64,000 nt of DNA from Hydrogenophaga sp. PAMC20947 (GTDB lineage Bacteria; Pseudomonadota; Gammaproteobacteria; Burkholderiales; Burkholderiaceae_C): contig NZ_CP039252.1 in assembly GCF_004795855.1 (NCBI RefSeq), positions 3,844,001 through 3,908,000 of the forward strand, written 5' to 3'. The notes under the pieces were generated by a model. That model worked only from the letters and a program-made list of their open reading frames with translations. It made no database searches and was not told the DNA's origin. Of the stretch, positions 5,762 to 64,000 are shown piece after piece; positions within the stretch are counted from its first letter, which is position 1, and the number at the start of each line of letters is the position of its first letter. The position numbers and the translations under genes were made by a program.

Positions 5762-7747
5762 TCATCCCGACAGCAGCTTGTCTTCGGCCAGTGCCAGGGC
5801 TGGCGCTTTGGCGCTGAGCACCAGGGTGTCGCCGCCATTGACCAGCGTCTCATCGTCAAAAACCTTGTTTTTGCCGTTGGCGGTGCGCAGGTTGACCACG
5901 CGAACACCCATGGGCTCCAGGTTGAAACTGCCCAGGGTTTTGCCTGCGCTCCGACCCCCCATGGGCAAGGTCACGGTGTGCATGCGTTCGTGTTCGGCCT
6001 CTTCTACGCTGTCGTCGTCCGCCCCGTGGAAATAACCGCGCAGCAGGTTGTAGCGCGCGTCGCGCTGGTCTTGTACGACCCGGATCACCCGCCGCATGGG
6101 CACCCCCACCAGGGCGAGTGCATGGCTGGCCAGCATGAGGCTGGCCTCGATCGCTTCGGGCACCACCTCGGTGGCGCCGGCATTGCGCAGGCGTTCCAGA
6201 TCCACATCGTCCACGGTGCGCACCACCACAGGCACCTGCGCCGCCTGGTCTCGGCAATGGTGCAAAACCTTGAAGGCACTGGCGGTATCGAGGTAGGTGA
6301 TGACCACCGCGCTGGATCGGTGCAGCCCGGCGGCCATGAGGGCTTGCAGGCGCGCTGCGTCGCCGAAAACCACCGAATGGCCGGCGGCAGCGGCCTGACG
6401 CACACGATCGGGATCCAGATCCAGCGCCATATAGGGGATGTTCTCGGCCTCGAGCAGGCGGGCCAGGTTTTGCCCGCAGCGGCCGTAGCCGCAAATGATC
6501 ACGTGTTTGTCGGCGTTGATCGACTTGCGCGCGATGTTGGTCATCTGCACCGACTGCATCAGCCAGTCGCTGCCGACGACGCGGGTCACGATGCTGTTGG
6601 TGTACATGATCATGAACGGTGTGGCGAGCATGGAGATCACCATGGAGGCCAGGATCGGGTTGAACAGCGCTGGGGGCACCAGGTTGTTTTGCCCCGCCAG
6701 CGTGAGCAACACCAGACCGAATTCACCCGCCTGCGCGAGGTACAGGCCGACCCGCAGGGAAACGCCCATGGGCGCGCCAAAGCCCCGGGCCAAGCCCGTG
6801 ATCAAGGCCAGCTTGAATGTCAGCGAGAGAGACAGCAGCAGCAGCACCAGGGGCCAGCGTTCGATCACCAGGCGCCAATCGAGCATCATGCCGATGGTGA
6901 TGAAAAACAGCCCCAGCAAGACATCGTGGAACGGGCGGATGTCGGTCTCCACCTGGTGCTTGAATTCGGTCTCGGAAATCAGCATGCCGGCCACGAAGGC
7001 CCCCAGGGCGAGCGACAGGCCCGCATGCTCCGTCAACCAGGCCAGGCCCAGGGTGATGAGCAAAATGTTGAGCATGAAGAGCTCTTCGCTCTTTTGCCGT
7101 GCCACCAGGGTGAGCCACCAGCGCATCACCTTTTGACCGCCGGTCAGCAAAACGCCCAACAGCACCACCGCCTTGACCAGCGCAAACCCCAGCGAGACCA
7201 GCAGCTCTTCGGGCTTGGCTCCCAGGGCCGGGATCAACACCAGCAGAGGCACCACGGCCAGATCTTGAAACAGCAAGATGCCCACCACGCGTTTGCCGTG
7301 GTCGGACTCCAGCTCCAGGCGCTCGGCCACCATCTTGATCACGATGGCGGTGCTGCTCATGGCCATGACACCCCCCAGGGCCACGGCAATCTGCCAGGAC
7401 ACGCTCCACCATTCGGGCAAGACCATGCCCAGGACAATCGAGGCACCGGTGGTGATCAGCACGGTCAGCACCACCTGCGCCAGACCCAGCCCGAACACAT
7501 GGCGTTTCATGGCGCGCAGCTTGGGCAGGCTGAACTCCAGCCCGATCACAAACATCAGGAACACCACGCCAAACTCGGCCAGGTAGCGCACACCGCTGGA
7601 GTTCTGGGCGAGGGCCAGGGCATTGGGCCCGATCACCACACCGACCACCAGATAACCCAACATGGGCGGTAACTTGAACTGGCGGCACGCCACCACCCCC
7701 AGCACGGCGGCAAGCAGGTAAAGCAGCGTGATGTCCAAGGAGTTCAT
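5762..7747 (-). CDS. Monovalent cation:proton antiporter, KefB/YbaL-like (CPA2)
   Basis: A 661-residue membrane protein with a CPA2-type antiporter domain of about twelve hydrophobic segments (residues about 1-385), beginning SLDITLLYLLAAVLG. It is followed by a cytoplasmic TrkA-N nucleotide-binding domain (HVIICGYGRCGQNLARLL) and a TrkA-C domain (about 570-645). The family exports K+ in exchange for H+ and is gated by nucleotides or thiol adducts through the TrkA-N domain. The start is set at ATG 7747; a longer frame reaches 7819 but would overlap the divergent kdsD. Whether it is KefB, KefC or YbaL in role cannot be decided here. Confidence 0.88.
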   Translation of the reverse strand: MNSLDITLLYLLAAVLGVVACRQFKLPPMLGYLVVGVVIGPNALALAQNSSGVRYLAEFGVVFLMFVIGLEFSLPKLRAMKRHVFGLGLAQVVLTVLITTGASIVLGMVLPEWWSVSWQIAVALGGVMAMSSTAIVIKMVAERLELESDHGKRVVGILLFQDLAVVPLLVLIPALGAKPEELLVSLGFALVKAVVLLGVLLTGGQKVMRWWLTLVARQKSEELFMLNILLITLGLAWLTEHAGLSLALGAFVAGMLISETEFKHQVETDIRPFHDVLLGLFFITIGMMLDWRLVIERWPLVLLLLSLSLTFKLALITGLARGFGAPMGVSLRVGLYLAQAGEFGLVLLTLAGQNNLVPPALFNPILASMVISMLATPFMIMYTNSIVTRVVGSDWLMQSVQMTNIARKSINADKHVIICGYGRCGQNLARLLEAENIPYMALDLDPDRVRQAAAAGHSVVFGDAARLQALMAAGLHRSSAVVITYLDTASAFKVLHHCRDQAAQVPVVVRTVDDVDLERLRNAGATEVVPEAIEASLMLASHALALVGVPMRRVIRVVQDQRDARYNLLRGYFHGADDDSVEEAEHERMHTVTLPMGGRSAGKTLGSFNLEPMGVRVVNLRTANGKNKVFDDETLVNGGDTLVLSAKAPALALAEDKLLSG

Positions 7748-59647: not shown

Positions 59648-61045
59648 TCAACCGCGCATCAGCGCTTCGATCTCGTCCGCTGTCACCGGCACACCACGGC
59701 TGATCAGCTCACAGCCCGTGTCGGTGACGATGGCGTCGTCCTCGATGCGGATACCGATGTTCCAGAACGGCTCCGGCACACCCTCGGCGGGGCGCACATA
59801 CAGGCCCGGCTCGATGGTCAGCACCATACCCGCCCGCAGGATGCGGCTGGGCCGGTCCTTGATGACTTCGCCTGACAGCGCATCCTTGCGCTCCTTCACC
59901 TGGCCCAGTTCACCGGGTTCGACATAGCTGCCGCAGTCGTGCACGTCCATGCCCAGCCAGTGGCCGGTGCGGTGCATGTAGAACGGGAAGTAGCTGCGGT
60001 TGGCGATCACGTCCTGCGCGGTTCCGACCTTGTTTTTGTCCAGCAGGCCGACATCCAGCAGACCCTGGGCCAGCACGGCCACCGTGGCATCGTGTGGATC
60101 GGTGAAGCGTGCGCCGGCTCGGGTCGCTGCCACGGCGGCCTCTTGTGACGCCAGCACCAGGTCGTACAGCGTGCGTTGTGGGCCGGTGAACCGACCGTTG
60201 GCGGGGAACGTGCGCGTGATGTCGCTGGCGTAGCCGTCCAGCTCGCAGCCGGCGTCGATCAGCACCAGCTCGCCGTCGCGGATCGGTGCGGCATCGGCGC
60301 GGTAATGCAGGATGCAGGCGTTTGCCCCGGCCGCCACGATGCTGCCGTAGGCGGGGTACTGCGAGCCCTGCTGCCGGAATTCGTGCAGCAGTTCGGCGTC
60401 CAGGTGGTATTCGCGCACATCCTGCCCCGCCCGCAACATGGCCGCGCTGCGCTGCATGGCACGGATGTGGGCCCGCGCACTGATCTGCGCTGCACGGCGC
60501 ATCACATCCTGCTCGTGGGCGTCTTTGATGAGCCGCATTTCGTCGAGCGGCCCGCAGAGATCGCGCTGTTGTTCGGGACACACGGCACCGAAGCGCACCC
60601 GCGCGCGCACCGGGTCCAGCCAGTCGTTGACCCGGCCGGCCAGGGTCTTGTGGGTGGCGAAGGGGTACCAGACCGCGCTGCGGTTCTCCAGCAGCTTGGG
60701 CAGGCGGGAGTCGAGGTCTGCGCTGGACACGGCAGCGCTCACGCCCAACGTGTCGGGCGCGGCTTCAGGGCCCAGGCGCAGGCCATCCCACACTTCGCGC
60801 TCGGCGTCTTTGGGGTTGCAAAACAGCGTGCTCTCGCCCTCGGCGGTCAACACCAGCCAGGCGTTGGGCTCGGTGAAGCCGGTGAGGTAATAAAAATAGG
60901 AATCGTGGCGAAACAGGAAATCGCTGTCGCGGTTGCGCGGCTGTTCGGGCGCCGTGGGCACGATGGCGATGCCACCGGCGCCCAATTGGGCAGCCAGGCG
61001 TGCTCGGCGTTGGGCGTAAATCGTGTGTGGGTTGGTGTTGTCCAT
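59648..61045 (-). CDS. pepP: Xaa-Pro aminopeptidase (aminopeptidase P)
   Basis: A 465-residue metallopeptidase of the M24 family that removes N-terminal residues before proline. The N-domain contains RNRDSDFLFRHDSYFYYLTGF. The five metal ligands are in LIDAGCELDGYASDITR (two Asp), HRTGHWLGMDVHD (His), TIEPGLY (Glu) and GIRIEDDAIV (Glu). ATG 61045 is used; ATG 61051 is equally close. The gene lies between the unknown gene at 61110 and the MOSC gene, on the same strand. Confidence 0.95.
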   Translation of the reverse strand: MDNTNPHTIYAQRRARLAAQLGAGGIAIVPTAPEQPRNRDSDFLFRHDSYFYYLTGFTEPNAWLVLTAEGESTLFCNPKDAEREVWDGLRLGPEAAPDTLGVSAAVSSADLDSRLPKLLENRSAVWYPFATHKTLAGRVNDWLDPVRARVRFGAVCPEQQRDLCGPLDEMRLIKDAHEQDVMRRAAQISARAHIRAMQRSAAMLRAGQDVREYHLDAELLHEFRQQGSQYPAYGSIVAAGANACILHYRADAAPIRDGELVLIDAGCELDGYASDITRTFPANGRFTGPQRTLYDLVLASQEAAVAATRAGARFTDPHDATVAVLAQGLLDVGLLDKNKVGTAQDVIANRSYFPFYMHRTGHWLGMDVHDCGSYVEPGELGQVKERKDALSGEVIKDRPSRILRAGMVLTIEPGLYVRPAEGVPEPFWNIGIRIEDDAIVTDTGCELISRGVPVTADEIEALMRG

Positions 61046-61109
61046 GGTCATGATTGTGCGATGGCTTGGCGATTCTTCGGGGATGAGGGGCAATGGGTGT
61101 TCACAGACC

Positions 61110-62060
61110 CTAGAGCGCCAGCAGCCGCCGTTGCACGTCCAGTTTGAGGGTCAGGACCCGGCGCATGCGCGGGGCGGCAAAGCTGTGCGCCAGCAAAGGA
61201 TTGTCGAAATCGCGCAGCAGCGGTGGACGGGGCGCGTTGAAGTACAGATCGGCGTTGTGCAGGATTTCCGAGGACGCCGCCTGTTGCACATCCTCCATTG
61301 AGGCACAGGGCTGGATCAGACAGGGCGCGTGTGTCAGGCCCAGGGCGCGCAGGGCCAGTGCCCGGTGGTGACCGTTGTTGAGGGCGATCCGTCCGTTGAA
61401 GCGCACGGCATTGAGCAGGTTGGCGCTGAACCCCACGGTGAGCGCCACCACCGCTTGCGGGTGTCCCATCACGGGCGCCTGCTGCACGCTCAAGGGCTCA
61501 ATCACCTGGGCATCCAGAAAACGCATGTCGTGGGCATCTGAGACAAAAGTGAATTCCCGTTCGGAACGCCCGGCCAGGCGAAAGCTGGCTGCGGGCGCTT
61601 TCAGGGGCAAGCACAGCTCGGCCAGACGCCGTGGGCTGATGGGTGCCGGGTGCCCGGCTGCGATGTGGTCCACCACCGCCCGGGTCATGCTGTACTGCGA
61701 AACGATGAGGGCATCCAGCGGCACGAGCCCGAAGGCGACGGGCACTGTGTCGAAGGTGCGGCTGACGCCCTCGCGCTCGACCAACGCGGCGATGTGCTTG
61801 TCCATGGCTTTGGGCAAGGGCTTGACCGCGGGGCGGTCGGCAATGCCGGGTTCGCTGAGCTCCAGCCTGGCGTACTCGGCCTGGCCCGCGCGCCACAAAT
61901 CGGTCAAGGCAGCGCGGTCCGGCATGGGTTGGCTGAGGCGCAACGCCTCGGCGTCCTCCAGCCAGCTGTCCAGTTGCCCGGGACCCATGAGGAAGCGCTC
62001 TTCGGTGGTGGCGACTGCGCCGAACGCTGGCGACGCTGAGGGGTAGGCAGGGCGTGACAT
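61110..62060 (-). CDS. Hypothetical protein with ParB-like C-terminal motif
   Basis: A 316-residue soluble protein I do not recognise by function. The middle and C-terminal part contain RIALNNGHHRALALRALGLTHAP, which resembles the ParB/Srx-type nucleotide-binding pattern (GxxR-type box with a following VP). The N-terminal half is helical with no motif seen. It is divergent from the double-glycine peptide gene across 233 bp and is followed after 64 bp by pepP. A link with the peptide is possible only by position. It may simply be a conserved housekeeping protein of the order. Confidence 0.7.
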   Translation of the reverse strand: MSRPAYPSASPAFGAVATTEERFLMGPGQLDSWLEDAEALRLSQPMPDRAALTDLWRAGQAEYARLELSEPGIADRPAVKPLPKAMDKHIAALVEREGVSRTFDTVPVAFGLVPLDALIVSQYSMTRAVVDHIAAGHPAPISPRRLAELCLPLKAPAASFRLAGRSEREFTFVSDAHDMRFLDAQVIEPLSVQQAPVMGHPQAVVALTVGFSANLLNAVRFNGRIALNNGHHRALALRALGLTHAPCLIQPCASMEDVQQAASSEILHNADLYFNAPRPPLLRDFDNPLLAHSFAAPRMRRVLTLKLDVQRRLLAL

Positions 62061-62139
62061 GCCGCAATTGTGCGCGCACCCTGCTGTCGCCGGGCGGGCG
62101 GGCTTGTCTCATGCGTTTTCGGAAATCCCCGCCCCTCAT

Positions 62140-62167
62140 TTGCCAAATTTGTCACATTGCTTATAAT
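62140..62167 (+). promoter_or_regulatory. Strong sigma-70 promoter of the peptide gene
   Basis: TTGCCA (62140-62145), 16 nt, TATAAT (62162-62167). The -10 is perfect and the -35 has one mismatch, unusual for this GC-rich window. Confidence 0.75.
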
Positions 62168-62219
62168 GCCTTTTCCGTACGAAACAAAATGTGATGATTC
62201 GTTTTGTACTCATTTTGAG

Positions 62220-62234
62220 GCGATGTCACATCGC
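62220..62234 (+). promoter_or_regulatory. Palindrome in the peptide leader, possible operator
   Basis: GCGATGTCACATCGC is a perfect inverted repeat with 7-bp arms around one central base, about 55 bp after the -10. A further imperfect repeat (ACAAAA at 62184-62189 with TTTTGT at 62202-62207) lies upstream. It could be an operator or an mRNA hairpin. Confidence 0.45.
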
Positions 62235-62293
62235 TTGTATGGATGCTGCGGGCGCAAGCCCCTGTGGGGAAACACTTTGAAGGAGAGATGACG

Positions 62294-62539
62294 ATGCGAG
62301 TGTTGAATCTGGAAGAAATGACCGAAGTCAGTGGCGGTCGCGGTTGCGGTTCTTCCTGGACCGGAAGCCGCTGGAAAAAGAGCTACGGCAAGGGTTCCGG
62401 GAAAAACTCCGGCAAGAACTCTGGCAAGTGCGGGAGCAAGGGTTCGGGCAAAGACTCGGGCAAGGGTTCCGGTAAAGGCAGTGGAAAATGCACGCCGCCG
62501 CCCGTATGTGGGCCAGCGGAACCGCCTCAAGTGCCGTGA
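62294..62539 (+). CDS. Double-glycine leader peptide with Ser-Gly-Lys repeats (bacteriocin/RiPP-like precursor)
   Basis: An 81-residue product with a 15-residue leader, MRVLNLEEMTEVSGG, that matches the double-glycine leader pattern (acidic-hydrophobic, ending GG) cut by C39 peptidase/ABC exporters. The predicted core begins RGCGSSWTGSRWKK, then has eight imperfect tetrapeptides of the form xSGK (residues 34-65), and ends with Cys66, PPPVCGP and a Pro-rich tail. There are four Cys (18, 46, 66, 72). AAGGAG at 62280-62285 favours ATG 62294, though ATG 62288 is possible. Strong promoter and terminator flank it, so it is a single-gene unit. No exporter, modifying enzyme or immunity gene is nearby that I recognise. 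Confidence 0.78.
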   Translation: MRVLNLEEMTEVSGGRGCGSSWTGSRWKKSYGKGSGKNSGKNSGKCGSKGSGKDSGKGSGKGSGKCTPPPVCGPAEPPQVP

Positions 62540-62564
62540 GCTTGGCTTGACGTCACGTCAACAA

Positions 62565-62592
62565 ATGGGCCCTTTCAGGGGCCCATTTTTTT
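62565..62592 (+). terminator. Rho-independent terminator of the peptide gene
   Basis: ATGGGCCC (62565-62572) pairs with GGGCCCAT (62579-62586) around a 6-nt loop, followed by seven Ts. It lies 25 bp after the stop and 14 bp before the end of the convergent murU. Confidence 0.9.
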
Positions 62593-62606
62593 GCAAAAAT
62601 CGCAAC

Positions 62607-63359
62607 TCAGGCGTGTCGGGCCTGGTTCAGCTCGGCAAGGCGTTCCGGGGTACCCACATCGGTCCAGGCCCCGGTGTAGAGCTCGGCGCTGACGAGGCCG
62701 GCGTCCATCGCTGCGCGCAACAAGGGCGCCAGGGCCGCCGCGCTGCCCTGTGGGTTGCCGGGCCGCGTGTGGCACCACGGCTGCTCAAACAGTGCGCGCC
62801 GGTACAGGGCGATGGTGCTGAAGGTGAAGCGCTCTTCGGCCTGGTTGAGTGCCTTGCCTTCGGCGCTCAGACCAAAATCCCCTTGGGGGTTGTGCGCCGG
62901 ATTCGGCACCAGCCACAGGTGGGCAAGGTGATCACTGGCCCGAAACCGGTCAACGTTGTCCTGGCTGAAAACAAAGTCTGGCACGTAGACGTCGCCTGCG
63001 AGCACCCAGAAGACATCGTCGAGCAGCGGCAGCGCGCGGGAAATACCGCCAGCGGTTTCCAGCGCGTAGCCAAAGTCGACACCTTCATGGGAGTACGCGA
63101 TGTGCGCGCCGGGGTGCTGGTCTGACCACGACGCGAATCGTGCCTCAATCTTTTCACCCAGCCAGGCCGTGTTCACCACCAGCCGGGCACATCCGGCCTT
63201 GTGCAGGGCCTCCATGGGCCACTGCATCAATGGCAGGCCTTTGACTTCCAGCAAAGGCTTGGGGCACACGTCGGTCAGTGGGCGCATGCGCATGCCGCGT
63301 CCAGCCGCCAGCACCATGGCGCCAGCGGTGTGGGTAGCGGGGTTGGGGGTGGATATCAC
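62607..63359 (-). CDS. murU: N-acetylmuramate-1-phosphate uridylyltransferase MurU
   Basis: A nucleotidyltransferase of 250 residues from GTG 63359 (236 from ATG 63317). The sugar-nucleotide signature is MVLAAGRGMRMRPLTDVCPK, followed by PLLEVKGLPLMQW, and the metal-binding VLAGDVYVPD. This fits MurU, which makes UDP-N-acetylmuramate from the product of AmgK in cell-wall recycling. The start is uncertain, because no convincing ribosome binding site precedes either codon. The matching amgK is 24 kb away at 37357-38448. It is divergent from tkt, 107 bp apart. Confidence 0.85.
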   Translation of the reverse strand: MISTPNPATHTAGAMVLAAGRGMRMRPLTDVCPKPLLEVKGLPLMQWPMEALHKAGCARLVVNTAWLGEKIEARFASWSDQHPGAHIAYSHEGVDFGYALETAGGISRALPLLDDVFWVLAGDVYVPDFVFSQDNVDRFRASDHLAHLWLVPNPAHNPQGDFGLSAEGKALNQAEERFTFSTIALYRRALFEQPWCHTRPGNPQGSAAALAPLLRAAMDAGLVSAELYTGAWTDVGTPERLAELNQARHA

Positions 63360-63466
63360 CTGCGCATTATTGACGAGCGGCGGGCGCTTTGACACCCCGT
63401 TGGCACGGGGCGAATAAAATTCAGGGTTTGGCGCCCCGCCGCCGCCTTCCAACCATCTGGGATTCC

Positions 63467-64000
63467 ATGTCCGACGTAGCCAGCACCACCCCCTCCGCAG
63501 CAGCCCCGGCGCCAGCGCCAACCACCGTGTCCGCCCAGACCCAGGCCAACGCGATCCGCGCGCTCGCCATGGACGCGGTGCAGGCCGCCAATTCCGGCCA
63601 CCCGGGCGCTCCCATGGGCATGGCCGACATGGCCGTGGCCTTGTGGGGCCGCCATCTGCGCCACAACCCCACCAACCCCGCCTGGGCCAACCGCGACCGC
63701 TTCGTCCTGTCCAACGGCCATGGCTCCATGCTGATCTACGCGTTGTTGCACCTGACCGGCTACAAGCTGCCCATCCAGGAACTGAAAAACTTCCGCCAGC
63801 TCGGCAGCAAGACCGCTGGTCATCCTGAAGTTGGACACACCCCCGGCGTGGAAACCACCACCGGTCCGCTGGGTCAAGGCCTCACCAACGCCGTGGGCAT
63901 GGCGCTGGCCGAGAAGCTGCTGGCTTCGGAGTTCAACCGCACCGTTGGCGATGTTCACCATGCCATCGTGGACCACAACACCTTCGTGTTCCTGGGCGAC
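63467..64000 (+). CDS. tkt: Transketolase, N-terminal part (cut by window end)
   Basis: The first 178 residues of a thiamine-diphosphate transketolase, which moves two-carbon units in the pentose phosphate or Calvin cycle. A Ser/Ala/Pro-rich N-terminal extension of about 25 residues is followed by [52 protein letters not shown] and [10 protein letters not shown]. The His in NSGHPGAP and the GHGS motif are intact. The reading frame remains open to the last base of the window. Confidence 0.96.

Follow-up and report, generated by a model that had tools for sequence, protein, structure and literature searches.

A double-glycine-leader repeat peptide of Hydrogenophaga and an adjoining protein of predicted ParB/sulfiredoxin fold that appears to follow the peptide core

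Introduction

Class II microcins are among the closest described systems to the locus considered here, in which the gene of an 81-amino-acid (aa) precursor peptide stands divergent from the gene of a 316-aa orphan protein, called the partner below. The locus lies in a 64,000-nucleotide stretch (the window) of Hydrogenophaga sp. PAMC20947 (NZ_CP039252.1, positions 3,844,001 to 3,908,000). Partner and peptide occur together in proteobacterial genomes, and the presence of the partner correlates with the type of peptide core. PMC9746304 lists five components for class II microcin systems. The window's locus shares with these systems, and with export of the colicin V type, a 15-aa double-glycine (GG) leader and, in the same genome, a C39 ATP-binding cassette (ABC) exporter, HlyD and a TolC-like protein. 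It differs in its low-complexity SGK core, its orphan partner, the distance of its exporter and the lack of an immunity gene recognised close by.

The EbfG1-4 proteins of Synechococcus elongatus are small GG-motif proteins that are exported by a C39 peptidase transporter and serve biofilm formation, as described in PMC4997328. Because of this precedent, GG-leader peptides may serve biofilms rather than killing. Their likeness to the present peptide lies in small size, GG leader and, as predicted here, C39 export; the abstract mentions no ParB-type partner. Diatom silaffins, which are eukaryotic, also have Ser/Lys-rich cationic repeats; this is an analogy only, and no data here suggest a role in silica. 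The NHLP/NHLM export families (TIGR03796 and TIGR03794) provide the best NCBIfam model for the C39 exporter, but both exporter genes fall short of the equivalog cut-offs (494.2 versus 853.3 bits for the exporter, 72 versus 156.2 for HlyD) and are not members, and the leader is not of the Nif11 or nitrile-hydratase-like kind.

The partner resembles the free serine kinases SerK and SbnI in predicted fold and by a weak profile match, and its NNG[HY]HR box is similar to their DGHHR. It differs from them in an extra N-terminal helical part and in Gln122, which a gap-free alignment by eye places opposite Glu30 of SerK. The substrate of SerK is free serine and not serine in a peptide (PMC5120207), and a survey of the ParB/sulfiredoxin fold describes many members as uncharacterised (PMC12704722). 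We found no report in the open-licence literature that links a ParB-like protein with GG-leader peptides. If true, the reading proposed below would assign a role to an orphan branch within this fold and add a peptide export module in which the partner goes with the core rather than with the leader.

Results and discussion

The peptide gene and its family

The 15-aa double-glycine leader proposed in the initial annotation was borne out by translation and by homologues. A protein search returned 28 other members (E <= 1 for all, E <= 1.6e-3 for 25), and all 28 carry a leader of the same kind with SGK units, so the family is more than chance. In an alignment that took in 24 of the 29 sequences, the invariant leader columns include M1, R2, V3, E8, V12, G14 and G15. 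One relative, LPB72_21975 of Hydrogenophaga crassostreae, bears the UniRef name "Bacteriocin microcin". In another protein, P0028, the leader and the start of a repeat core run into a sequence matching PF05635, which may be an assembly error.

The 66-aa core contains 17 Gly, 12 Ser, 11 Lys, 7 Pro and 4 Cys, with 13 Lys and Arg against 2 Asp and Glu. The annotated four cysteines (aa 18, 46, 66 and 72) and Pro-rich tail are present, whereas the supposed eight xSGK units are seven SGK units, starting at aa 35, 39, 43, 51, 55, 59 and 63, and a single GSK after Cys46. Across the whole protein Ser is written with five codons and Gly with four, and since this variety extends into the repeat, the repeat is not a fresh expansion at the DNA level. 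No Pfam family scored above its cut-off for the core, the best being PF10439 (Bacteriocin_IIc; 14.4 versus 27.1 bits, in the leader region only), in agreement with the earlier placement outside the known bacteriocin classes.

Within the genus, the full-length peptide was found in 2 of 67 genomes, namely the window genome (G000) and G005; a third match, in G020, is confined to the leader. The two tandem copies of G005 have the chromosomal setting seen in the window, being flanked by relatives of the partner gene and of the downstream nucleotidyltransferase and transketolase-like genes, and tandem copies also occur in G114. A scan of 399 family genomes matched seven, with full-length peptides in G000, G192, G114 and G316. 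These 399-genome scans score part of the first-look candidates of each genome (14 for the peptide, 5 for the partner), and misses are possible: G226 and G371 have divergent peptides that the peptide scan missed and that came to light only through the partner. Matches that proved to have no leader were dropped as chance: G117, G100 and G096 in the family scan, and G037 and G051 in another scan, where three genomes besides G000 had matched and that of G005 was real. The translated stretch of G037 confirmed that it has no leader.

It is highly improbable that the open reading frame (ORF) is unexpressed and its neighbourhood due to chance or hitch-hiking. The family is rare in the genus, as the counts above show, but the leader is conserved, the repeat codons vary, promoter and terminator signals are present, and the linkage described next is repeated in several genera with differing flanks. 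The gene looks real, and its product, a repeat peptide with a positive charge, is very probably exported.

The partner accompanies the peptide

The initial annotation treated the peptide gene as an isolated unit and overlooked its divergent neighbour. Copies of this partner, 311-337 aa long, adjoin the peptide in each of the five genomes whose loci were read first (G000, G005, G192, G114 and G316). Among the 67 genus genomes the partner occurs in G000 and G005, the same two that have the full-length peptide; identical two-genome sets would arise from independent draws once in 2211, a figure that is too kind given the kinship of the genomes. Six of the 399 family genomes have a full-length partner. 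Four of them (G000, G114, G192 and G316) have matches to both partner and peptide, and the other two, G226 and G371, have divergent peptides directly beside the partner, with the leader MRTL[ND]SEELKLVYGGG and cores rich in Ser and Lys; HlyD and C39-ABC genes come next. Partner fragments in G324 and G567, both around the HHR box within longer frames, were excluded from the counts.

When named genomes were scanned with an alignment of the partner, 13 loci were obtained, 10 of which have a 15-aa GG leader close by; L044, L045 and L049 duplicate the records of G192, G114 and G316, and each was counted once. All 15 proteobacterial partner genomes have a GG-leader peptide, in 14 of them no more than 0.84 kb from the partner, and all 15 have a C39 exporter, which lies in the same stretch in ten and elsewhere in five (the genomes of G000, G005, L044, L046 and L055). 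In L055, a Rubrivivax metagenome-assembled genome (MAG), no such peptide is near the partner, and the contig with the C39 gene carries one with the leader MRILTLEEMLVASGG, a Lys/Gly core and a Cys/Pro tail. The gene order in L052, L065 and L066 is peptide, partner, HlyD and C39-ABC on one strand. As a background check, the 15-aa leader rule was applied to 17 stretches (307,538 bases): it picked 16 peptides near the partner and none beyond 1.6 kb, and missed that of L065, which lies within a long open frame. At least five peptide and partner proteins come from equal-sized contigs (16624, 8982, 4120, 564855 and 4944132), which suggests that they lie on the same contigs.

Two further leader-bearing or leader-like sequences were seen. 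L042 has a second GG-leader peptide (5824-6078) some 1.4 kb away from the partner; its core is rich in Asn and Asp and is not cationic. In L091 (9472-9699) a leader-like RVLTFEEVRVAQGGG, perhaps a decayed copy, stands in frame upstream of the peptide with a Lys/Gly core.

The partner follows the core

Three genus relatives, G461 (leader MRVLSNEEMGNVAGG), G457 (MRTLTQQEMADVAGG) and G020 (MRVLSNEEMGEVSGG), have GG-leader peptides with cores of CxPKP repeats, and the partner scan of the 67 genus genomes found no partner in any of them. The exporters of G461 and G457 are 81% and 75% identical to that of the window genome, and G020 (84% complete) has C39 matches at E 1.9e-24 and 1.9e-18. The more distant G051 has a 50% identical C39-ABC protein and a non-repeat GG peptide, with no partner within the 19 kb read. 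Ser and Gly make up 28-63% of the core in 14 of 16 tabulated partner-linked peptides (16% in L044b and 18% in L051), and 4-11% in the three tabulated partnerless cores. Within one lineage of leader and exporter, the partner is present or absent according to the type of core, which would allow a clear test. The CxPKP-repeat peptides of L067, L068 and L028 form a second peptide family linked to this exporter lineage, and those of L067 and L068 adjoin the TolC-like gene.

The partner is also found outside the proteobacteria. Two Fimbriiglobus MAGs (planctomycetes) have a partner of 34-35% identity, next to which a convergent gene encodes a 237-279-aa protein that carries KGSGG/KGSNG repeats. These proteins (L053 and L054) have no GG leader, their N-terminal export signal being of another type, and C39 is absent from both genomes. 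Full-length partners occur in 2 of 95 genomes of that planctomycete family. A coding pattern for the KGS repeat was found in 3 of 14 family genomes: in six places in G485 and one in G486, at the partner locus, and once in G492, where the match reads K-G-C-K-G-K-G-C; a reversed control pattern matched once, in G485. The partner appears to be tied to the core and not to the leader. Because the planctomycete partner adjoins a KGS-repeat protein with neither GG leader nor C39, we infer that it works on the repeat core, and these loci are the best sign of this.

A predicted ParB/sulfiredoxin fold

The predicted model of the partner has a predicted local distance difference test (pLDDT) score of 92.7 and resembles the ParB/sulfiredoxin fold, and UniRef names the G005 copy ParB/Sulfiredoxin domain-containing. 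A partner search gave 141 proteins at E <= 1e-5, the best 120 of which were listed. Four copies were scanned and had no NCBIfam match and no Pfam match at E <= 0.1 except a weak HHH_2 in the G005 copy. The partner profile had seven matches among PDB sequences, all weak, to SerK, SbnI or their relative 1vk1. PADLOC did not identify the partner as a defence protein, and it had no matches in viral contigs. One relative, P0152 (518 aa), has about 200 extra N-terminal residues and is a possible fusion.

In an alignment of 76 partner sequences, position 122 is Gln in 75, and position 231, within the NNG[HY]HR box, holds His in 54, Tyr in 21 and a gap in one. The catalytic Cys of sulfiredoxin sits in a GCHR box, and Glu30 of SerK is the catalytic Glu. 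Although fold and profile point in these directions, the partner was rejected on single residues both as a sulfiredoxin (His or Tyr at 231 instead of Cys) and as a plain free serine kinase (Gln122 for Glu30).

Gln122 occupies the place of a Gln in ParB. Together with ParB and Noc as the top Foldseek rows, the one weak PHROG match (PHROG 4715, ParB-like partition protein, E 0.0036), the divergent gene arrangement and a perfect inverted repeat with 7-bp arms, placed between the promoter and the peptide gene (GCGATGT-C-ACATCGC, 62220-62234), this would fit a protein that, like ParB, is switched by a nucleotide and binds DNA, and that regulates the peptide gene without acting on the peptide. We consider this unlikely. 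A search for a conserved operator in the gap between the two genes found none, as the inverted repeat is absent upstream of both G005 copies; the partner is co-directional within the cluster in L052, L065 and L066; its box is, in our reading, nearer to SerK than to ParB; and it tracks core type, not leader or exporter.

Export genes

The C39-type transporter on which the export proposal of the initial annotation depended is present: the window genome has a single C39 match above the cut-off, with ABC domains in the same ORF. Its cluster lies about 1.45 Mb from the peptide gene, if the single contig is circular. C39 matches at E <= 0.001 occur in 35 of the 67 genus genomes, and at E < 1e-30 in only four (G005, G000, G461 and G457). 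No modifying enzymes of known classes of ribosomally synthesised and post-translationally modified peptides were among the ORFs listed around the exporter, a search that was not genome-wide.

An ordinary class II microcin, that is, a C39-exported antibacterial peptide with the partner as immunity protein or mere accessory gene, would account for several of these features. The GG leader and the genes for a peptidase-containing ABC transporter, a membrane fusion protein and a TolC-like protein make four of the five components listed in PMC9746304, one relative is named as a microcin, and copies are in tandem in G005 and G114. We nevertheless regard it as somewhat unlikely, as the core is of low complexity and the planctomycete partner adjoins a repeat protein that is not of the GG type. 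In addition, no small membrane protein was found beside the peptide among codon-filtered ORFs of up to 250 aa at about 61000-63600 (no 19-aa stretch with mean hydropathy above 1.6), a narrow look that leaves room for large or unusual immunity proteins; the partner, at 316 aa, reaches a maximum 19-aa hydropathy of 1.57.

Proposed pathway

We favour, with moderate confidence, a joint reading in which a cationic peptide is exported by a C39 transporter and its core is handled by a nucleotide-dependent partner. Before export, the core would be handled in the cytoplasm by the partner, a protein that probably uses a nucleotide. The ABC exporter, encoded at a distant site of the same chromosome, would recognise the leader through its C39 domain and cleave it off behind Gly15, and the core may exit through HlyD and the TolC-like channel, as suggested by the parts present and by their linkage in relatives. 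Outside the cell, the flexible cationic core with its Cys and Pro-rich tail would most likely bind an anionic surface or polymer; it could serve in a matrix or at a surface, or else be toxic to neighbours, two roles that the data do not separate. The antimicrobial, adhesin and metal-binding roles suggested in the initial annotation are all still candidates.

There is a fair chance of fresh peptide chemistry in the partner-linked system. As a tentative possibility, it may represent a new class of ribosomal modified peptides, in which the partner modifies residues of the Ser/Gly/Lys-rich core with the help of a nucleotide, for example by phosphorylation, with C39 export in Burkholderiales and another route in planctomycetes.

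Feature coordinates and expression signals

Table 1. Coordinates of the features discussed (window positions unless a contig or locus is named)
Feature	Position	Strand	Basis
Partner gene, 316 aa, predicted ParB/sulfiredoxin fold	61110..62060	-	homologues, loci, model
Sigma-70-like promoter, TTGCCA-16-TATAAT	62140..62167	+	consensus scan
Ribosome-binding site, AAGGAG	62280..62285	+	sequence
Precursor peptide gene, 81 aa	62294..62539	+	translation, homologues, alignment
Double-glycine leader MRVLNLEEMTEVSGG, 15 aa, putative cleavage after Gly15	62294..62338	+	translation, homologues
Core, 66 aa, putative exported product from Arg16	62339..62536	+	translation, composition
Repeat region, seven SGK and one GSK	62393..62488	+	repeat count
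Cys/Pro-rich tail CTPPPVCGPAEPPQVP	62489..62536	+	translation, alignment
Hairpin with T run, terminator-like	62563..62592	+	sequence, folding energy
HlyD-type gene	G000:C1 501940-503223 (L007)	-	HlyD_3 5e-09
C39-ABC ORF	G000:C1 499731-502106 (L007)	-	C39 E 1.6e-35
TolC-like gene	G000:C1 498256-499734 (L007)	-	OEP 2.9e-43
GG-leader (C-x-P-K-P)n peptides of three genus relatives	L067 6325-6507; L068 4331-4522; L028 1501-1677
Planctomycete repeat proteins beside partner	L053 10937-11650; L054 1661-2500	L054 minus	Cys, Pro-rich stretches, no Pfam match

The near-consensus promoter and good ribosome-binding site that had been annotated are both present (Table 1). The promoter matches the consensus at 11 of 12 positions, and one such site was found against a mean of 0.3 in shuffled sequences. 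The strong terminator was upheld in part: the hairpin after the stop codon (62540-62600) has a folding energy of -23.2 kcal/mol (z -3.46), but it was absent from the output of a simple terminator scan. In G005, no promoter site above the scan threshold was found for copy G005b, and copy G005a has TTGTGA-16-TATAAT at a comparable distance from the gene. An alternative in-frame ATG at 62288, two codons upstream, is a possible start of the window's peptide, but it crowds the ribosome site.
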